Assembly (NCBI GenBank): GCA_934202525.1
Contig: CAKPYB010000006.1
Coordinates: forward strand, 1-64,000
Direction: 5' to 3'
Source of the DNA: an uncultured Prevotella sp.
GTDB taxonomy: Bacteria; Bacteroidota; Bacteroidia; Bacteroidales; Bacteroidaceae
Length of the DNA stretch: 64,000 nt
Positions 221 to 36,730 of the stretch are shown one piece after another (the first letter of the stretch is position 1; each line of letters starts with the position of its first letter). The notes under the pieces are model-generated. The model ran no database searches, was not told where the DNA came from, and was given only the letters and a program-made list of their open reading frames with translations. Both the position numbers and the translations under genes were made by a program.

Positions 221-255
221 ATGATAGATGATTACATAAAATTTGTTCATATGAA

Positions 256-563
256 GGCTGCGCTGGGTTACGAATATGGCTGCGCTGGGTTACGGATATG
301 ACTGCATCGGGTTACGAATATGACTGCATCGGGTTACGGATATGACTGCATCGGGTTACAAATATGGCTGCATCGGGTTACAGATATTACTGCGTAAGCT
401 AACGGAGACGTATCTGTAAGCTTATCGAGACGTCTGCATCAGCTAACTGAGACGTCTGCATCAGCTAACTGAGACGTCTGAACCCGCTTACTGAACTACT
501 TGAATTGTCTTACTGAACTACTTGAGTTGCGTGACTGAACTGCTTGAGTTGCTACCCTTCCAC
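256..563. repeat. 22-bp phased repeat array A (about 14 units)
   Basis: Units start at 256, 278, 300, 322, 344, 366, 388, 410, 432, 454, 476, 498, 520 and 542, exactly 22 bp apart. The unit sequence drifts in blocks: first CTGCRYYGGGTTAC words, then GAGAC/GTCTGC words forming the dyad AGACGTCT at unit junctions, then CTTACTGAACT words. Phase is kept when the sequence family changes. A 22-bp period cannot be a peptide repeat because 22 is not a multiple of 3. The array lies between the terminator of the YitT-type gene and the promoter at 22-29. Confidence 0.85.
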
Positions 564-652
564 TGGACTTACTGAACCCATACTTGCTCTTTTGGTAAAG
601 TGAGGGTATGTCATAAGTTTATGATTCACCCTCTTGACTTTCCTTGATGCAC

Positions 653-11109: not shown

Positions 11110-11835
11110 TTAATCAGTTAGACCTTTCTGAGGGTCGAAATCCTCAGGTACTTCAGTTACGATGATAGGCTCCTTGTGTCCGAGCTTCTCGCTGGCAGAG
11201 AGATTCTCGTTGCTCAAGCCGCGGAGACCGCCCTTGCTCATAGAAAGTTCCTTCTCATCCTGAGACATCTTGTGGTTAGCACCACCGAAGAATTTCTCAA
11301 CCTTTACCTTACGCTGCAACTGCATCATACCGTAAAGGATTGCCTCAGGGCGTGGAGGACATCCAGGGATGTAAACATCCACAGGAACCAGCTCGCTGAT
11401 ACCACGAACCACGTTGTAGCTCTTCTTGAACGGACCACCAGAGATGGCGCATCCACCAACAGCCACTACATACTTAGGCTCAGCCATTTCATCGTACAAA
11501 CGTTTGAATACAGGTGCCATCTTATTGGTAATAGTACCGGCACACATGATCAAGTCAGCCTGACGTGGAGAGTTACGGGTTACCTCGAAACCGAAACGGG
11601 AGAAGTCGTAACGTGCACAACCTACAGCCATGAACTCGATACCACAGCAAGAAGTACCGAAGGTCAAAGACCAGAGAGAGTTACTGCGTCCCCAGTTGAT
11701 GGCAGCATCGAGTGAACCGACTACCACGTTAGCACCACCCTCATTGAGCTCCTGCGCAATCTTTTCGAGGGTATCATTGTCCTTAAACTCGTCGTAAGGA
11801 ATACTCTTGATAGAGGCTCTTTTGTTTACTTCCAT
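11110..11835 (-). CDS. nuoB: NADH-quinone oxidoreductase subunit B
   Basis: This subunit binds cluster N2, which passes electrons to quinone. The ligands appear in TSCCGIEF, MCAGTITNKMAPVF and YIPGCPPRPEAIL. I place the start at the ATG at 11835 (241 residues). The longer frame to 11856 begins at TTG, and a Shine-Dalgarno-like AAAGGAG sits 7 bp upstream of 11835. With this start the gene overlaps the end of nuoA by 10 bp. The C-terminus beyond about residue 185 is a charged extension not needed for the fold. Confidence 0.95.
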   Translation of the reverse strand: MEVNKRASIKSIPYDEFKDNDTLEKIAQELNEGGANVVVGSLDAAINWGRSNSLWSLTFGTSCCGIEFMAVGCARYDFSRFGFEVTRNSPRQADLIMCAGTITNKMAPVFKRLYDEMAEPKYVVAVGGCAISGGPFKKSYNVVRGISELVPVDVYIPGCPPRPEAILYGMMQLQRKVKVEKFFGGANHKMSQDEKELSMSKGGLRGLSNENLSASEKLGHKEPIIVTEVPEDFDPQKGLTD

Positions 11836-12176
11836 TCCAATGCTCCTTTCCGCCAAGCGTATGCAAGGCCAAATACCAATACCAACAAGAAGAACCCGAT
11901 GCTCACGAGAGCCATAGGTCCAAACTGCTTAACTACGACTGCCCATGGGTAAAGCAATACTGTCTCGATATCAAACATCAGGAAAAGGATGGCGAAGAGG
12001 TAGTAGCCGATATGTGATGGCAACCATGAGCTGCCACGTGTCGGAATACCGCACTCAAAAGGTTCACCCTTTACCGGATTGTATGAACGAGGACCGATCA
12101 ACTTCGCGATGACATAAGCAGCCACCACCAAGGTTACAGCCGTCAGCAAAACGGTGATAAATAGTGTAAAGTTCAT
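11826..12176 (-). CDS. nuoA: NADH-quinone oxidoreductase subunit A
   Basis: This 116-residue, three-helix membrane subunit is the first gene of the operon. Diagnostic features are GEPFECGIPTRGSS (near residue 38) and LFDIE-type acidic residues in FLMFDIETVLLYPWA (near 66). The start follows a leader of about 40 nt behind the -7 element at 12222-12229. Its end overlaps the nuoB start, so translation is probably coupled. Confidence 0.95.
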   Translation of the reverse strand: MNFTLFITVLLTAVTLVVAAYVIAKLIGPRSYNPVKGEPFECGIPTRGSSWLPSHIGYYLFAILFLMFDIETVLLYPWAVVVKQFGPMALVSIGFFLLVLVFGLAYAWRKGALEWK

Positions 12177-12185
12177 AAATTTGTT

Positions 12186-12195
12186 ATAACGTTAT
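12186..12195. promoter_or_regulatory. Perfect 10-bp palindrome in the nuoA leader
   Basis: ATAACGTTAT lies between the predicted transcription start (about 12215) and the nuoA start codon. Its 8-bp core TAACGTTA is also present at 21609-21616 in the mannan locus control region. It could be an operator, but A/T-rich spacers produce such palindromes by chance. Confidence 0.3.
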
Positions 12196-12221
12196 TTTAT
12201 ATAAATGCTTCTAAGCGGCTG

Positions 12222-12229
12222 CAAAGGTA
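12222..12229 (-). promoter_or_regulatory. -7 element of the nuo operon
   Basis: The minus strand reads TACCTTTG (TAnnTTTG consensus), 46 bp upstream of the nuoA start. Confidence 0.55.
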
Positions 12230-12300
12230 ACACTTTTTTCTGAAAGAACACGTTTTTTTATGGTTTAATTTACAATCAAATTTAAAAAAAACAAAAAACA

Positions 12301-12417
12301 GCCTTTTTCATCATCCTACGGATAGCGATACTACCTGGATTTCGCAAGAATCCATGCATAAAACTGCAGGAACTTCAGAAGGAGATAGTTCTGCTGGCGC
12401 AGGAAGATGATTGAATA
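12301..12417 (+). pseudogene. Possible orphan C-terminal coding remnant
   Basis: In one plus frame, about 38 codons run without a stop and end LQELQKEIVLLAQEDD. The stop codon lies in the first unit of the adjacent repeat array. No start codon is available, because a stop lies at 12283-12285. The peptide has a charged helical look but no family was recognised. It may be a gene remnant or chance. Confidence 0.2.
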
Positions 12418-12714
12418 AGCAGAAGAATATGATTGAATAAGCGTATTCAGATGATTGAATAAGCGGAAGAATATGATTGAATAAGCATATTCAGATGTTT
12501 GAATAAGCGAAAGGATATGATTGAATAAGCGAAAGGAGACGTTTCTTTGGGTTCAAAGAGTCGTCTCTTTTAGTTTTAGGAGACTGCTTTTCGAGTTGAA
12601 GGAGACTGCTTCTCGAAGGTTGCCACTAGGCTCAGCAGCTCTGCTGAGCCTAGTCAGCAGCTCTGCCGACTGCAGTCAGCAGGTCTGCCGAGCCTAGTGA
12701 CAACACCTTTTAAT
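12407..12714. repeat. 22-bp phased repeat array B1 (14 units)
   Basis: Six copies of ATGATTGAATAAGC (one ATGTTTG variant) start at 12407, 12429, 12451, 12473, 12495 and 12517, exactly 22 bp apart, with alternating 8-bp linkers. The phase continues through different families. Units ending in GAG or GGAG follow to about 12604. Units built on CAGCAGCTCTGCTGAG-type dyads follow to 12692, for example CTCAGCAG/CTGCTGAG. Array B2 then begins. There is no coding capacity. Confidence 0.85.
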
Positions 12715-12906
12715 CGTACAACTACAACCCTTATAGTCGTACAACCATACACCCTATAGTTGTACGACCATACACCCTTTAGTTGTACAAATATAACCCT
12801 TTTAGTCGTACAACCATAAACCCTTTAGTTGTACAACTATAACCCTTTTAGTTGTACAACCATAACCCTTTTAGTTGTACAACCATAACCCTTTTAGTTG
12901 TACAAC
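12713..12906. repeat. 23-bp array of nine GTTGTACAAC palindromes (array B2)
   Basis: Sites start at 12713, 12736, 12759, 12782, 12805, 12828, 12851, 12874 and 12897, exactly 23 bp apart. The consensus GTTGTACAAC is a perfect palindrome. Variants are ATCGTACAAC (site 1), GTCGTACAAC (2 and 5), GTTGTACGAC (3, the reverse complement of site 2) and GTTGTACAAA (4). The linkers are CYATAACCCTTTTA-like. Even spacing at about two helical turns resembles an iteron or operator array. Nothing is encoded. Confidence 0.9.
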
Positions 12907-12911
12907 CATAA

Positions 12912-12964
12912 ACGCAAGCCCGCCAGGCGTTCCTTTTTACACCTAGCGGGCTTGCGTTTTTTAC
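12912..12964 (+). terminator. Strong plus-strand terminator after array B2, with no plus-strand gene
   Basis: A perfect 12-bp stem, ACGCAAGCCCGC (12912-12923) with GCGGGCTTGCGT (12946-12957), is followed by a T-run on the plus strand. In the minus direction only TTTATGG follows, a poor tract. The nearest gene on either side is on the minus strand. It may mark the 3' end of a plus-strand RNA covering the repeat array, or end dNK transcripts inefficiently. Confidence 0.65.
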
Positions 12965-13009
12965 CTTTTTACTTTTTTACCTTTTTACCTTTATGATAAG
13001 GACTTGGGG

Positions 13010-13050
13010 GGACTAGCGATGGAATCGCTAGGAACGGGGGCGCAAAGGGG
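13010..13050. repeat. 41-bp hairpin repeat, copy 1
   Basis: The hairpin CTAGCGATGGAATCGCTAG is followed by a G-rich tail GAACGGGGGCGCAAAGGGG. A near-identical copy lies at 13772-13812. Each copy sits downstream of one deoxynucleoside kinase gene, next to a run of TTTTTACC-type units. Confidence 0.8.
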
Positions 13051-13054
13051 TTAA

Positions 13055-13093
13055 GGTTCTTTTTACCTTTTTACCCTTTTACTTTTTTACCTT
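13055..13093 (-). repeat. Purine-rich 8-bp-period tract downstream of kinase 1
   Basis: On the sense (minus) strand this is a run of GGTAAAAA/AGTAAAAA units about 10 bp past the stop codon. The same tract type abuts the ends of the second kinase gene (13820-13895) and the GH26 gene (18641-18676), in the same orientation relative to transcription. Confidence 0.6.
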
Positions 13094-13102
13094 TAAAAGC
13101 CT

Positions 13103-13729
13103 TTAATCCCCCTTTTCAGCAAACAGGCCGAAGAGTTCGGCATCTATCAGGTCAGTAACCTTTCTAAAGTCTTCTGGATTCTCTCCGAACTCCAGATTAT
13201 CACCATCGATGATGATGAGGCGACCTTTATAATCCTTGATCCAATCCTCATAACGCTTGTTCAAGCCCTGGAGGTAATCAATGCGGATGCTCTTCTCGAA
13301 ATCGCGGCCACGCTTCTCGATATGCTTCACGAGCGTCGGAATGCTGCTCTTGATATATATCATCAGGTCTGGGAGTTTCACCAGACTGATCATCAGTTCG
13401 AAGAGGTCAGTATAGTTCTTGAAATCCCTATCGCTCATCATACCAATATCATGAAGATTAGGCGCAAAGATACGCGCATCCTCAAAGATGGTTCTGTCCT
13501 GTACGATAGTCTGCTCTGAACGGGAAATCTCCACAACATCATGGAATCGCTTGTTCAGAAAGTAAATCTGAAGATTAAACGACCAACGTTCCATATCCTT
13601 GTAATAATCAGCCAGATATGGATTATTATCTACTGGCTCGAAATTAGCTTTCCAGCCATATCTCTTGGCAAGCATCTTGGTTAATGTTGTCTTGCCGCTA
13701 CCTATATTTCCTGCTATTGCTATATGCAT
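13103..13729 (-). CDS. Deoxynucleoside kinase, paralogue 1
   Basis: This 208-residue P-loop enzyme phosphorylates deoxynucleosides for nucleotide salvage. GNIGSGKT at residues 7-14 is the phosphate-binding loop. EPVDNNPYLADYYKD contains the substrate-binding glutamate, QDRTIFED the DRT/ERS-type motif (near 77), and KRGRDFE the LID arginines (near 138). This pattern fits the dNK/dGK/dAK family; the preferred nucleoside cannot be read from sequence. It lies 160 bp downstream of a paralogue with roughly half its residues identical. The two may form a heterodimer, as known in lactobacilli, or have different specificity. Confidence 0.9.
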   Translation of the reverse strand: MHIAIAGNIGSGKTTLTKMLAKRYGWKANFEPVDNNPYLADYYKDMERWSFNLQIYFLNKRFHDVVEISRSEQTIVQDRTIFEDARIFAPNLHDIGMMSDRDFKNYTDLFELMISLVKLPDLMIYIKSSIPTLVKHIEKRGRDFEKSIRIDYLQGLNKRYEDWIKDYKGRLIIIDGDNLEFGENPEDFRKVTDLIDAELFGLFAEKGD

Positions 13730-13771
13730 CTTTGTTGTTAATGTTGAATGTTAAATGTTGAATGTTGAATT

Positions 13772-13812
13772 GGACTAGCGATGGAATCGCTAGGAACGGG
13801 GGCGCAAAGGGG
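13772..13812. repeat. 41-bp hairpin repeat, copy 2
   Basis: This copy has the same hairpin CTAGCGATGGAATCGCTAG and G-rich tail as 13010-13050. It lies between the two kinase genes and is preceded by 7-bp TGTTRAA repeats at 13738-13770. Confidence 0.8.
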
Positions 13813-13819
13813 GAAGGCT

Positions 13820-13895
13820 CTTTTTACTTTTTTACCTTTTTACTTTTTTACCTTTAAAAGCCCTTTTACCTTTTTACCTTTTTACTTTTTTACCT
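13820..13895 (-). repeat. Purine-rich 8-bp-period tract at the stop of kinase 2
   Basis: The sense strand reads AGGTAAAAAAGTAAAAAGG and continues; its first TAA is the stop codon of the second kinase. Each 8-bp unit brings a TAA, and the period of 8 walks stops through all three frames. Confidence 0.65.
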
Positions 13896-14513
13896 TTCCG
13901 AAAAGAGGCCGAAGAGCTTGGCATCTATCTTATCTACGATTTCACCAAACTGCTTGGGATTGTGCTCGAAATCGAGATTATCAACTTCTACGATAAGCAC
14001 CTTACCCTTATACTTATTCATGATAAAATCTTCGTAAAGATTGTTGATACCTTCCAGATAATCCAGAGGCATCTTCTGCTCATAATCACGACCACGCTTC
14101 TGGATATTCTTCACGAGGTGAGGAACTGAAGAACGGAGATAAATCATCAGTTCAGGCATCTCTACCACTTCCATCATCGACTCGAAAAGCTCCATATAAG
14201 TCTCGTAGTCGCGCTGATCCATGTTGCCCATCTTCCGGTTGTTAGCCGCAAAGACATAAACGCCCTCAAAGATGGTGCGGTCCTGGATGACCGTCTCCTT
14301 ACTGTGTTGGATTTCCAGCAGATTCTTGAATCGCTGCTTCAGATAGAACACCTCCATATTGAGTGCCCATCGCGAGATATCCTTGTAATAGTCATCGATA
14401 TAGGGGTTTTCAGCCACGGGTTCCAAGTACTGTTTCCATCCATAATGTTTAGAAAGCATCTTGGTGAGTGTTGTCTTTCCACTACCGATATTTCCTGCTA
14501 TTGCTATATACAT
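13890..14513 (-). CDS. Deoxynucleoside kinase, paralogue 2
   Basis: This 207-residue enzyme is the upstream member of the kinase pair. It has the P-loop GNIGSGKT at residues 7-14, EPVAENPYIDDYYKD, QDRTIFEG near 77 and the LID segment KRGRDYE. All catalytic features are intact, so it is probably active. Substrate specificity is unknown. The promoter is the -7 element at 14574-14581. The 3' end runs into a purine-rich repeat, so the stop codon lies inside repeat sequence. Confidence 0.9.
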   Translation of the reverse strand: MYIAIAGNIGSGKTTLTKMLSKHYGWKQYLEPVAENPYIDDYYKDISRWALNMEVFYLKQRFKNLLEIQHSKETVIQDRTIFEGVYVFAANNRKMGNMDQRDYETYMELFESMMEVVEMPELMIYLRSSVPHLVKNIQKRGRDYEQKMPLDYLEGINNLYEDFIMNKYKGKVLIVEVDNLDFEHNPKQFGEIVDKIDAKLFGLFSER

Positions 14514-17251: not shown

Positions 17252-17335
17252 TTTTAATGTTAAATGTTGAGTGTTGAATGTTGAATGTTGAGTGTTGAAT
17301 GTTAAGTGTTAAATGTTAAATGTTAAGTATTAACT
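17252..17335. repeat. 7-bp tandem repeat (TGTTRAA/TGTTGAG)
   Basis: About a dozen degenerate TGTTGAA, TGTTGAG or TGTTAAA units stand in tandem between the transporter and the GH130 terminator. Shorter tracts of the same repeat lie at 13738-13770 and 19838-19866. Confidence 0.8.
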
Positions 17336-18640: not shown

Positions 18641-18676
18641 TTTTTTTTACTTTTTTACCTTTTTACTTTTTTACCT
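18641..18676 (-). repeat. Purine-rich 8-bp-period tract at the GH26 stop
   Basis: On the sense strand GTAAAGGTAAAAAAGTAAAA is both the last codons (VKVKK), the stop and the spacer. The repeat has therefore entered the reading frame of the GH26 gene. It matches tracts after the kinase genes. Confidence 0.65.
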
Positions 18677-19826
18677 TTACAATGTCTTTGGCAAAGAGGA
18701 TTTTCTTTTCCTTCTTAAACTTCTTGAAGTCCTTGACGATATCACCGTCGCCGACACCAGGTAGGTAAGCCTCTTCCTCAGGTTTATCCCAGGCATTACG
18801 CCAGAAGAGGACATAACTCAACTGATACTTCTGAAGTACAGGCCAGAGGGTTTGCGTAAACCAGTCTTTCTTGCTGGCGATACCCCGGCAACCCGTTTCG
18901 GTGAGGGCAGGAATCTTGCCCACCTTCTTGGCAGCTTCCATCAGTACATCGAGCGTAGCTGCAAGGTTCTGCTGATAGTTGGCATCGTTGTTGTCAAACT
19001 CGTAGACATCAACACCCAGCATATCCACATACTTCTCACCCGGGAATCGCTCCAGGAATTTTTCTACCGTCTTCTCGTCGCTGAGATTTGGTGACCAAGC
19101 CCAAACGATGTTATTGCACCCTGCTTTAGTAAGTATATTTAGGGTTTTTACGTATAATTGGTTATATTGTACAGGTGTGCAACTGCTAGCTCCCCACCAG
19201 AACCATCCGCCATTCATTTCATGCCATGGTCGGAAGATGACAGGAACCAGTTTACCATCGTTTGTCTTCAAAGAAAGGATGAAATCGGCAACCTTCTTGA
19301 GCCAGCCATCAAACTTCTGTTGCTGGGCGCCACCATCCAGGACAGCAGCTACAGCATCACCTTTCGGATCCCAGGCATTCTCGCCTGTTACCGGATTCCA
19401 AGGGTGCCAGCTCAAAGTGACGATGCCTCCTCTCTCATTTTGGGCAATAATCTCTTTTCGCATACGATCGAAAGAGACGCCATCGAGATTTTCTTTGCTG
19501 TCCAACTCTATTTTTCCAAGATCGAAACCCATCACAGCAGGATAATCACCTGTAGTGAGGAGTACATCGCTCTTTCCTTCATCCCATTTCCAAGTAGTGC
19601 CATACACCGGATCATCCTGATGCCCGAGCATGATACCCTTATTCAGTAATTTCTGCAGTCTTGCCTTCAGTTGCTCTGCCGGAGTATTGCAACATTGCTT
19701 TTTACCCTTGCAGCAGGAAGTATTGGCAGTCTGGACTGATGCGCCCGTAACGCCATCAACCTGTGCCATTGCTCCTTGCATCGCCATGAGGCAAGCTGCA
19801 CCAATCAAAATTCTTTTTCCTATCAT
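18663..19826 (-). CDS. GH26 endo-beta-1,4-mannanase
   Basis: This 387-residue secreted enzyme has a signal peptide ending near AMA-Q (residue 22) and a GH26 barrel from about 50 to 370. The acid/base glutamate is E203 in FRPWHEMNGGWFWWG, and the nucleophile is E310 in ALTETGCRG. Such enzymes cut beta-mannan, often releasing mannobiose, which feeds the epimerase and GH130 encoded beside it. Between signal and catalytic domain is a cysteine cluster, SCCKGKKQCC, not expected in the family. The C-terminal VKVKK derives from a repeat. There is no lipobox, so it is probably periplasmic. Confidence 0.93.
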   Translation of the reverse strand: MIGKRILIGAACLMAMQGAMAQVDGVTGASVQTANTSCCKGKKQCCNTPAEQLKARLQKLLNKGIMLGHQDDPVYGTTWKWDEGKSDVLLTTGDYPAVMGFDLGKIELDSKENLDGVSFDRMRKEIIAQNERGGIVTLSWHPWNPVTGENAWDPKGDAVAAVLDGGAQQQKFDGWLKKVADFILSLKTNDGKLVPVIFRPWHEMNGGWFWWGASSCTPVQYNQLYVKTLNILTKAGCNNIVWAWSPNLSDEKTVEKFLERFPGEKYVDMLGVDVYEFDNNDANYQQNLAATLDVLMEAAKKVGKIPALTETGCRGIASKKDWFTQTLWPVLQKYQLSYVLFWRNAWDKPEEEAYLPGVGDGDIVKDFKKFKKEKKILFAKDIVKVKK

Positions 19827-19837
19827 ATCTTTATAAT

Positions 19838-19910
19838 GTTAAGTGTTAAATGTTAAATGTTAAGTTATTAGCATTTGAATTCTTCACTCTTCGTTCTTCA
19901 CTCTTCACTT
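19838..19910. repeat. Mixed short repeats at the esterase stop
   Basis: TGTTAAA units (19838-19866) are followed by CTTCACTCTTCGTTCTTCAC-type sequence up to the esterase stop codon. The sense strand thus reads GTGAAGAACGAAGAGTGAAG. Similar sequence follows the GH130 gene (about 17348-17380) and kdsA (55270-55290). Confidence 0.6.
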
Positions 19911-21801: not shown

Positions 21802-21850
21802 ATGGAAAAAGTAAATGCAACCTAGAGCTAGCCTCTAGCCCTTTCTTCTC
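21802..21850 (+). promoter_or_regulatory. Leader mini-ORF and hairpin before susC
   Basis: ATG at 21802 opens a 7-codon frame (MEKVNAT) ending with TAG at 21823-21825. The stop lies in the inverted repeat CTAGAGCTAGCCTCTAG. The arrangement resembles a leader peptide with a downstream hairpin, but no T-run follows. It may be chance. Confidence 0.3.
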
Positions 21851-21966
21851 ATCAGAAAAAGATGACGAAGGAATAATCAGAGAGCACTAATCCGTTTTGG
21901 ATTCTTTCCCGTATCGATCATATAAGTGAAAGAGCCAAACTGTTTTAACCAACTAACAAAAATTGT

Positions 21967-24900
21967 ATGAACTTTAAAAGTAGAGAAAAGTTGCTTGCTA
22001 GCGTAGCTGCCCTGAGTCTTCTCGGCATCTCCCCTCAGCAAACTTTTGCAGCTCAGATTACAACGAATCAGGCTGTGCAACAGACCAAGAAGATTACTGG
22101 TAACGTATCCGATGCAATGGGTCCTATCATCGGTGCAACAGTAAAAGTGAAAGGCACAAAAAATGCCGCAGTGACAGACTTTGATGGTAACTACACACTG
22201 AATGTAGGTGCCGGACAGACTGTAGAGGTAACTTACGTAGGATACATCACCAAAACTTTCAAAGTAGGAGGCCAGAGCAAGTACGACATCACTTTGGCAG
22301 AAGACAACAACAGTCTTGACGAGGTGGTAGTTGTAGGTTATGGTACCATGAAAAAGAGTGATATCTCAGGTTCTTCAGTTAGCCTTGGCGAAAAGGCTAT
22401 GAAGGGTTCTATCATCACCTCACTCGACCAGTCACTTCAGGGCCGTGCAGCAGGTGTTACCGCTGTCAGCACTTCTGGTGCACCTGGTACAGCATCCACT
22501 ATCCGAGTTCGTGGTACAGCAACCATCAACTCCAATGCAGAACCACTATACGTCATTGATGGTGTTATCTTCCAAGGAGGAAATTCCAGTGGTAGTTCCC
22601 TTGGTTTCGGTGACGCACTCGATAATGGTTCAGCCTCATCCGTATCACCACTTTCAACCATCAACCCTGCAGATATCGTAAGCATGGAGATTCTGAAGGA
22701 TGCTTCAGCCACAGCTATTTATGGTGCACAGGGAGCAAATGGTGTTGTTCTCATCACAACAAAAAGAGGTAAAGCCGGTGAAGCTAAATTTACCTACGAT
22801 GGCATGATGGCGTGGAGCCGTCAGACCAAGCGCCTTGACATGATGAACCTTCGCGAATTCGGTGATTATTACAACGATTTCGTTGCTGCAGGTTTCGGTG
22901 GTGTCAAGGAAGATCCATATTACAGCGATGTTTCTTTGCTCGGCAAGGGTACCAACTGGCAAGATGCTATCTTCCAGACCGCGTTTCAGCAGCAGCATCA
23001 GATAGCCGCTCAGGGTGGTACTGACAAAATCCAATATTATGTTTCCGGAAGCTACATGAACCAAGATGGTACCATCATCGGTTCTAGCTTTGACCGTCTT
23101 ACAGTACGCACCAACCTGGATGCACAATTGAAGAAATGGCTGAAACTCGGTTTGAGTGCAACCTTTACGAATTCGAACGATGACCTCAAGCTTACAGATG
23201 GAGCTGAGGGTATCGTAGGTTTCGCTTTGACCTCACTTCCAGAAGCTCCAATTTATGACATTGACGGAAATTACGCTTCTTTTGCCCGCGAAAACTACAA
23301 TATCCATAACCCTATTGCTAAGGCTATGGAACAGAACAACATGCTCAACCGCAAGAAGTTGACAGGTAATATCTATGCAGAGGTTACACCTATCAAGCAC
23401 TTAACCTGGCATGCAGAATTGGGTTATGACCTCAGCTACAGCAAGGCTGAGATTTTCAACAACACAATTGATCTCTATAACTGGCAGGAGCCTAACGAGA
23501 GCAGTATCCAGAAGAACAACAGCACTTACTGGCAGCTCAAGAACTATATTACATATAACAACACATTTGCTAAGAAGCATTCGGTTACAGCAATGGTTGG
23601 ACAAGAATGCTGGGAAAGCAAATGGGATTACACCAAAATATCAAACGACAAGTTGCCATCAGATGCTGTACATAATCCTGTATTGGGTACGGGTACTCCT
23701 ACCATAGCTGCCGGATTCGGAAGCAGTTCTATGGCTTCCTTCTTCACCCGTTGGACGTATAGCTATGACAGCCGTTACAATGCTACTTACACATACCGTT
23801 ATGATGGTAGTTCAAACTTTGGTCCAAACAACCGTTGGGCAGGTTTCCACTCTTTTGCTACCAGTTGGCGTTTCTCTAATGAGAAGTTCATTCAGAAGTT
23901 GGCAGGAAAATGGCTGAGCAATGGTAAGATCCGTATCGGTTGGGGACAGACCGGTAATGCCAACATCAACTCTTTTGCCTGGGGTGTAAACATGCAGAAA
24001 GTATATAGTTCCCTCGGTGCAGGTTATCGTCCACAGAACATTCCTAACCTGGATGTAAAATGGGAAAAGCAGGAACAGATTGACCTGGGTATCGACCTCG
24101 GTTTCTTCAACGACCGCATTGGCTTAACCCTCGACTGGTATCAGAAGGAATCTAAGGATATGTTGATGGAGATGCAGTTGCCTTCCTATATGGGTACAAG
24201 CGGTAATGATAACTCCAAGCTGAAAGCTCCTATGGGTAACTACGGCCACATCCGCAACAGCGGTCTTGAGTTAACAGTGACTGCTCACCCATTCGTAGGC
24301 AAATTCCAGTGGGATACAGAGTTCCAGATTTCATGGAACAAGAACAAATTGGTAGCACTCAACGGTACTGCCAGTTCAGCTATCATGGGCTATGCTCAGT
24401 GGGGACAGACACAGGTCAGCAAGACCGACGTAGGTCAGAGTCTCTACAGCTTCTATGGTTATGTAACCGATGGTATCTACCAAGACTTGGCAGACATAGA
24501 GCGTTCACCAAAGCCAGAGAAGTATCCTACAAATGGTGTCTTCAATGGTTCCAACACAGTCTATGTAGGTGACATTAAATATAAAGACTTGAATGGAGAT
24601 GGTGTCATCAACGAGCTTGACCAGACCAACATTGGTTCACCAATGCCTAAGTATACTTTCGGCTGGACCAACACCTTCCGTTACAAGGGCTTCGACTTGA
24701 GTATTTTCATCAATGGTAGCTATGGCAACAAGGTAATGAACCTGACCAAGCGCGGACTCACCAATATGAGTAGCGTATGGTGCAACCAGCATTCCGACGT
24801 ATTAAATCGTGCACGCCTGGAGCCTATCGATGCTTCTATCGTTTATGCAGACGGCAGCAAATGGTATGAACATATAGAGAATGTACGTGTCGCTAATCCA

Positions 24901-36488: not shown

Positions 36489-36730
36489 CCTTCGGTTCCC
36501 TCATTTCAAGTGAGGCTTACGTAATGTTTAAGTGAGGCTCACCTGAGCTTCAAAAGGGGCTTACTTGATATGCAAAGGAGGCTTATCTGGAGTTCAAATG
36601 AGGCTCACTTGATTCTGGGCAGGATGTATCTAAAATTACGTCGCGACGTATCTGTTACTGCGTCGGGACGTACAAGATACTGCATCGGGACGTACAAGAT
36701 GCTACGTCGGGACGCAATTTCGGGAACACC
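36489..36730. repeat. 22-bp phased repeat array C (11 units)
   Basis: Units start at 36489, 36511, 36533, 36555, 36577, 36599, 36621, 36643, 36665, 36687 and 36709. The first half uses GAGGCTYAC words and TTCAA ends. The second half uses CGTC-NN-GACG dyads across unit junctions, including the perfect 14-bp palindrome TACGTCGCGACGTA (36637-36650). Words such as ACGTATCTGT and ACTGCGT also occur in array A. It lies between the GH5_7-like terminator and the promoter at 36367. Confidence 0.85.

Follow-up and report, generated by a model that had tools for sequence, protein, structure and literature searches.

Array B, a run of 22- and 23-bp repeat units in a Prevotella intergenic spacer, as one copy of a dispersed composite element

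Structure of Array B

The window, i.e., the whole 64,000-nucleotide stretch of uncultured Prevotella sp. DNA that was analyzed, contains Array B in the spacer between nuoA and a deoxynucleoside kinase gene; Table 1 lists these features and the parts into which the array can be divided. An initial annotation, made from the letters alone, had described 22-bp units running on into nine units of 23 bp, and this periodicity is real: about 13.5 units of 22 bp precede the nine of 23 bp. When the sequence was laid out in rows, a 22-bp register ran over 14 rows from position 12390, of which the first is only partly alike and those at 12544-12610 are weak, and nine 23-bp units followed from 12706 to 12912. 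Tandem Repeats Finder detected the 22-bp period at 12403-12539 (score 148) and 12632-12698, and 9.0 copies of 23 bp at 12706-12911 (score 282); a laxer run added a 22-bp stretch at 12533-12606. From the row layout and these stretches together, the 22-bp part was thus taken to be 12403-12698. The periodicity is not due to chance. Within Array B, the maximum 110-bp lag identity reached 0.76 for the 22-bp period and 0.91 for the 23-bp period; when the spacer was shuffled 200 times with its dinucleotides preserved, this maximum averaged 0.41 and never exceeded 0.47. The real spacer contains seven GTYGTACRAC sites, whereas not one of the shuffles has any.

Table 1. Features of the window discussed in the text
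Feature	Position	Strand	Composition or evidence
nuoA (NADH dehydrogenase chain 3)	11826..12176	-	Pfam PF00507, E 2.3e-34
Array B	12403..12911	-	Lies in spacer 12177..13102
22-bp arm, distal part	12403..12539	-	Six units containing GAATAAGC; Tandem Repeats Finder and row layout
22-bp arm, proximal part	12533..12606	-	Degenerate units, consensus AAGGAGACGTCTCTTTGAGTTC; consensus more palindromic than shuffles
Conserved core, 103 bp	12610..12712	-	Three RGCAGnnCTGCYGA dyads 22 bp apart
Palindrome arm	12706..12911	-	Nine 23-bp units with GTYGTACRAC or near forms; Tandem Repeats Finder and row layout
Strong hairpin	12910..12959	.	RNA fold -40.8 kcal/mol, z -8.8
Deoxynucleoside kinase gene	13103..13729	-	Pfam PF01712, E 1.2e-55
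Other 22-bp mosaic array	243..573	.	Unit sequences other than those of Array B; Tandem Repeats Finder and row layout
Other 22-bp array	36637..36714	.	Unit TACGTCGGGACGTACAAGATAC; Tandem Repeats Finder

The nine palindrome sites are, as had been noticed, exactly 23 bp apart (12713, 12736, 12759, 12782, 12805, 12828, 12851, 12874, and 12897), and the third is indeed the reverse complement of the second. Calling all nine palindromes holds only in part: four (12828, 12851, 12874, and 12897) are perfect copies of GTTGTACAAC, but the other five are imperfect or substituted. Three of the latter differ by a single symmetric substitution (GTCGTACAAC at 12736 and 12805, GTTGTACGAC at 12759), and two have an end mismatch (ATCGTACAAC at 12713 and GTTGTACAAA at 12782). 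Within the core, each 9-bp half-site is followed 11 bp on by one in the opposite orientation, which makes the unit 22 bp long; an outer inverted repeat, GTTGTCACTAGGCTC / GAGCCTAGTGGCAAC, encloses the whole. Note that the feature extends beyond the 12407..12906 originally assigned to it, as the strong hairpin comes next.

Relatives, dispersal, and change between copies

The closest named relative found was Segatella copri strain Indica (G001), whose kinase is 97% identical in protein, and the window genome probably belongs to the S. copri complex; S. copri ranks among the major bacteria of the human gut. G049, a single contig of 3,325,514 bp, is nearer than G001: it is 97% identical to the window over the nuo block and in the kinase gene, and 88-90% in other parts that were aligned. 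The palindrome array, used as a query, matched five loci in G049, all of which by eye have the same order, namely, 23-bp palindrome arm, core (GTTGTCACTAGGCTCRGCAG..CTGACTGCAGTCRGCAG..CTGACTAGGCTCRGCAG..CTGCTGAGCCTAGTGGCAAC), and degenerate 22-bp arm. With the core as the query against three genomes, G049 yielded 11 loci, G001 two that were strong, and G002 a single one; ten of the G049 copies are 83-98% identical over 84-103 bp, and one is 84% identical over 67 bp. The G049 cores are spread from 0.44 to 3.15 Mb on the 3.3-Mb contig, and one runs 16 bp into the 3' end of an ORF. Neighboring ORFs differ among the 11 copies, and no gene recurs as a neighbor, which counts against a protein-bound element; the orientation of the surrounding ORFs (three convergent, two divergent, and six co-directional) shows no preference, which also counts against the interpretation that we favor below. 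Eight of the 11 cores lie on one contig strand, a bias that was set aside, there being no located origin to interpret it against.

By eye, the core is retained across copies, whereas the number of units in the palindrome arm ranges from zero to nine; the G049 copies at 3001051, 1658602, and 2391451 have no palindromes. Palindrome-only arrays also exist in G049, with five sites each at 855903, 1799764, and 2044761 and three at 2556615, and on the S. copri DSM 18205 plasmid (L142 4854-4964 and 28527-28632). A hairpin matching that at 12910..12959 adjoins the G049 copies at 444k and 573k and was not seen by eye beside the remaining copies examined.

A search of the genus for tandem palindromes, proposed in the initial annotation, bore fruit in a narrow circle: there were 40 pairs in G049 and one in G335, but none in the other 396/398 genomes. 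Among 118 genomes from the phylum, a tandem GTYGTACRAC pair was likewise found in one, which is again G049, and in none of the 117 others. The 20-bp core dyad AGTCRRCAGnnCTGYYGACT is more widespread, occurring in 8/398 genus genomes (G165, 20; G305, 13; G049, nine; G170, five; G001, G185, and G401, two each; G040, one), with none for the reversed control; by eye, G165, G305, and G185 have diverged versions with the same dyad unit and other 22-bp arms. In separate DNA-query searches of the 398 genomes, two candidates were scored per genome, and the resulting tally of 8/398 is thus a lower bound; among its weak matches, no fewer than three (L179, L180, and L182) resemble coding chance matches. 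The core had no match among PLSDB plasmids. In viral contigs, the core fragment CACTAGGCTCRGCAG gave 45 stretches with one match each, the core dyad gave a single stretch in DNA of coding appearance, and the one S. copri-type palindrome pair pattern searched for gave none.

Array length does differ between relatives, a comparison that had also been proposed: the window has nine palindrome units versus eight in the G049 orthologue, and six GAATAAGC units versus three. Alignment of the two orthologues places 22-column gaps in both arms, whereas the core differs at only 2/103 bases. The matching G001 spacer is 247 bp long and lacks the element. Because unit numbers differ between orthologues, the arrays could serve as strain markers. 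The window copy is, moreover, a mosaic with respect to the orthologue and the non-orthologous 444k copy of G049. Its proximal 22-bp arm is 93.5% identical to the orthologue versus 80.5% to the 444k copy, but its palindrome arm (94.0% versus 90.3%) and its hairpin (94.0% versus 87.5%) are closer to the 444k copy; the core is about equally close to both (98% and 97%), and when block 12533-12962 is taken as a whole, the two copies match it equally well without gaps (92.4-92.5%). Judged from these identities, the mosaic fits exchange between loci, although it is not proof of exchange.

The observation that symmetry seems to matter was borne out at the level of DNA. A census of 77 units in 13 hand-chosen stretches admitted units in which G, TA, and C hold their set positions and no fewer than 8/10 letters match GTTGTACAAC, a criterion that excludes two of the window's own nine units; 71/77 fit GTYGTACRAC, comprising 25 GTTGTACAAC, 22 GTCGTACAAC, 22 GTTGTACGAC, and two GTCGTACGAC. 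The last, doubly substituted form is below the expectation of eight under independence (Fisher p 0.001, as a guide only, since the units are related). Palindromes that in a transcript would carry a C.A mismatch and those that would carry a T.G mismatch are equally common (22 and 22), which argues for a constraint on DNA rather than RNA. Alignment of the cores points the same way, in that the 2-bp dyad centers vary while the half-sites hold. Between the two orthologues, however, conservation of the palindrome columns (73/80) is only slightly better than that of the spacer columns (88/102), which counts against the favored interpretation, as does the very strong folding of the core as RNA (see below).

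Repeat periods in intergenic DNA

Intergenic DNA of the sampled Prevotella-type genomes has a preference for repeats of 22 bp. Genes were masked as ORFs of at least 100 aa and not by annotation. Over 0-800 kb of G049 (including 9,500 N letters), intergenic positions at lags of 20, 21, 22, 23, and 24 numbered 0, 271, 1702, 433, and 130, respectively; seven further scattered 20-kb stretches of G049 gave 31, 0, 249, 0, and 0, 400 kb of G001 gave 27, 88, 699, 0, and 0, and ten other genomes of the genus (40 kb each) gave 0, 35, 506, 0, and 0. Those 506 positions make up 14 arrays in 4/10 genomes at the main setting; over four settings, the number of genomes with lag-22 arrays ranged from four to seven, with the peak unchanged. 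The phylum sample (20 Bacteroidota stretches, two of which, under 2.5 kb, were dropped, leaving 18) contained one lag-22 array, 79 Bacteroidales loci contained nine, and 150 kb of E. coli contained none. As a share of intergenic DNA, lag 22 accounts for 2.9-3.9% in G049, G001, and the genus sample versus 0.4% in the phylum sample. Counting against the favored interpretation, 83 lag-22 positions lie inside ORF-masked DNA in the 800 kb of G049. Best intergenic arrays by Tandem Repeats Finder in the window, G049, and G001 numbered 52 at 22 bp versus 14 at 21, eight at 23, eight at 20, and six at 24, and arrays of short period were frequent as well (26 at 7 bp, 14 at 14, and 13 at 8).

The units of these arrays are mostly unrelated in sequence: the bulk of pairwise similarities are those of shuffles, although some families recur at several loci. 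A single common ancestor of all 22-bp units was rejected on this ground. A mutational step duplicating 22 bp was also rejected, as two-copy repeats have no clear peak there (eight at 22 bp versus six at 20, 16 at 21, and three at 23). All intergenic repeat pairs, on the other hand, do peak at 22 bp (90 versus seven at 20, 23 at 21, and 16 at 23), so expansion or retention of 22-bp arrays is favored. The two-copy table also contains 15 pairs at 44 bp, which are probably remnants of arrays, and ten coding pairs at 22 bp. A palindromic consensus was found in 15/57 arrays of 22-23 bp versus 0/43 of other periods; related arrays are taken separately in these counts and in those from Tandem Repeats Finder, which inflates the 15/57. 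Since the consensus is not significantly palindromic in the remaining 42/57, a dyad-binding protein does not explain all arrays of this length, which counts against the favored interpretation. The element of Array B seems to be part of a wider Prevotella-type habit of intergenic 22-bp repeats. Among the top-ranked papers searched, subscription journals being largely outside that scope, we found no account of 22-bp or intergenic arrays in Prevotella or Segatella.

Several other arrays were seen along the way. In that at 243-573 of the window, the unit shifts stepwise in register from GGGTTACGAATATGACTGCATC to AGCTAACTGAGACGTCTGCATC to CGCTTACTGAACTACTTGAATT, and similar arrays lie at two places in G049. 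A composite of 18-bp GCACAACAGCTGTTGTGC-type palindromes at 22 bp occurs at G049 60121, 513769, and 633913 and in G001 (L173 12998); next to these palindromes, the G049 copies at 60k and 633k also have another 22-bp unit, which is of the AACAACATATCCTATCTCTTCC type. The window also contains apparently intergenic 7- and 8-bp microsatellites (TTTTTACC, AATGTTA, and variants) at 12958-13105, 13736-13897, 17256-17326, 18643-18678, and 19835-19909.

Interpretation and comparison with known systems

We favor, at roughly even confidence, a reading of Array B as a single copy of a BIME-like, non-coding composite element of the S. copri complex, dispersed over largely intergenic sites, whose dyads are probably bound by protein and whose units are gained and lost; it is not an array of operators confined to this locus. 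In minus-strand order, the element consists of zero to nine GTYGTACRAC palindromes at 23 bp, the dyad core, and a degenerate 22-bp arm. It presumably acts as double-stranded DNA, each dyad being a putative site for a dimeric DNA-binding protein, and a unit of about two helical turns would keep successive sites regularly arrayed, as in E. coli BIMEs. The arms may gain or lose units by slippage or unequal exchange, and blocks may pass between loci. The comparisons demonstrate the layout of the element, its dispersal, the unequal unit numbers of orthologues, its occurrence in one species and lack in another, and the 22-bp preference of the sampled genomes. Protein binding is likely but, like the way of spread and any benefit to the cell, inferred. 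The period of the palindrome arm, which is 23 bp and not 22, counts against this interpretation.

A REP unit is a stem-loop some 20-40 nt long, and gyrase, IHF, or Pol I assembles on the BIMEs of E. coli. The unit here, in contrast, is 22-23 bp, and the GTYGTACRAC palindromes are loopless. The likeness lies in the organization: the 11 G049 copies are dispersed at unrelated extragenic loci, and the element is a mosaic in which alternating palindromic units (the core half-sites every 11 bp) are combined with other motifs (the arms). BIMEs and REPs (palindromic units) are described from E. coli and pseudomonads (PMC2817692). They too are extragenic mosaics, dispersed beside many different genes, in which palindromic units recur at regular spacing, alternate in orientation, and are combined with other motifs. 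The Y1 transposase family PF01797, which does not separate REP-type tyrosine transposases (RAYT) from IS200/IS605, had two matches in G049, three in G001, and none in the draft genome G002, which has a core; no match is near a core, the nearest in G049 being about 151 kb away.

The main rival is neutral satellite behavior, i.e., a minisatellite shaped by slippage and unequal recombination, with no protein and no function, its period reflecting a mechanical preference for about two helical turns. The unit-sized indels between the orthologues, the mostly unrelated array units, the missing element in the matching G001 spacer, and the palindrome columns hardly more conserved than spacers would all be expected of it. 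We nevertheless consider it rather unlikely, as two-copy repeats have no clear 22-bp peak, the core dyad is common to several species, palindromes are enriched in the 22-23-bp arrays, and such arrays are missing from the 150 kb of E. coli. If the 22-bp rule holds whatever the sequence, slippage alone would not predict it, and a shared length-setting mechanism or protein is indicated. The conserved core dyad provides a defined bait, and the choice between a protein platform and a neutral satellite is therefore directly testable.

A bolder possibility, to which we give less weight still, is that Prevotella-type bacteria have in these arrays a bacterial counterpart of satellite DNA: fast-changing intergenic arrays whose unit would be fixed at 22 bp by the footprint of a nucleoid or segregation protein. 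Those 22 bp would span two turns of the helix, the inverted half-sites lying 11 bp from each other, sequences would vary by locus and species, and the element of Array B would be the S. copri form, with the AGTCRRCAGnnCTGYYGACT core as the conserved recognition site.

A non-autonomous MITE with minisatellite arms, moved in trans by a transposase, is distinctly improbable, although the copies are dispersed and two of them bear on insertion. Beside one G049 copy, near a gene that we take to be murF, palindromes begin about ten bases past the stop codon, where the G001 contig continues for 63 bp and contains no palindromes; at another, the core closes a gene, presumably for an ADP-ribosylglycohydrolase-like protein, whose G001 homologue by eye has a longer and different end. 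However, the three sites compared with G001 revealed neither a clean empty site nor a target duplication. Ends compared by eye at 13 core loci (L184, whose core is not covered, was left out) have no constant left or right terminus and no terminal inverted repeat. No transposase was recognized by eye among the genes neighboring the cores.

BrickBuilt of Porphyromonas gingivalis is the nearest described system found in the order: a MITE with a 23-nt tandem repeat without spacers, intergenic, and dispersed in 19 copies in ATCC 33277, with a leader and a tail that have small inverted-repeat ends (PMC4596501). Compared by description, the present element is likewise from Bacteroidales and has a 23-nt tandem arm without spacers in an intergenic, dispersed setting, but its ends differ among the 13 loci and inverted-repeat leader and tail ends were not seen there by eye. 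With no fixed ends or terminal inverted repeats seen by eye, membership in a BrickBuilt-type MITE family is unsupported.

A structured RNA element or terminator, with the hairpins acting in transcripts, has in its favor the strong folds of both the flanking hairpin (z -8.8) and the core, which as RNA would form a hairpin of -66.2 kcal/mol (z -7.7). It is very unlikely, since C.A palindrome variants are as frequent as T.G variants and the long stem by eye is broken, with the register kept, in three core copies (1985053, 3153919, and 1316778). All 36 matches listed by Rfam 15 are below the gathering score (best 31.3 bits versus 78). Palindromic candidate structured RNAs, many of them in Bacteroidetes, are reported in PMC8040213, and an overlap with the element is possible.

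The tandem dyads do lie upstream of nuo genes, but the originally suggested iterons, parS-like cluster, or multi-operator platform, if taken to act locally on nuo or the kinase, can hardly be upheld, because the same element occurs at ten other G049 places beside different genes, is missing from the G001 spacer, and has as its two immediate neighbors genes that are not for replication or partition. Plasmid iterons of 22 bp resemble Array B in being tandem 22-bp sites; the element differs in that it has no adjoining rep gene, its half-sites are inverted, and it is chromosomal and present at many loci. No replication initiator gene adjoins Array B, the flanking genes being nuoA and the kinase gene, and none was seen by eye among the neighbors of the G049 cores. 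Separately, plasmid L142 of S. copri DSM 18205 has 22-bp GGTAAACAGTTTTGTGGTTTC-type arrays at 21809-21961, 23505-23569, and 23887-24078 around a RepB-family initiator gene (repB), and these are perhaps true iterons.

Phage pac-like repeats are a further comparison, as 56 viral loci contain copies of GTTGTACAAC spaced by 22 or 24 bp; there, however, the motif occurs in only two or three copies inside a gene, and no terminase gene lies beside Array B. That phage genes and Array B have the motif in common may be coincidence. The viral loci (L081-L136; e.g., L125 3004-3061 and L099 815-846) have 45 pairs of GTTGTACAAC at 24 bp and 19 at 22 bp. At 22 bp, the second site is in another frame, so that the DNA motif rather than the peptide is kept. 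The repeats are a candidate pac site, and in 54/56 loci they lie within frames that by eye are small-terminase-like (a family search covered two of them).
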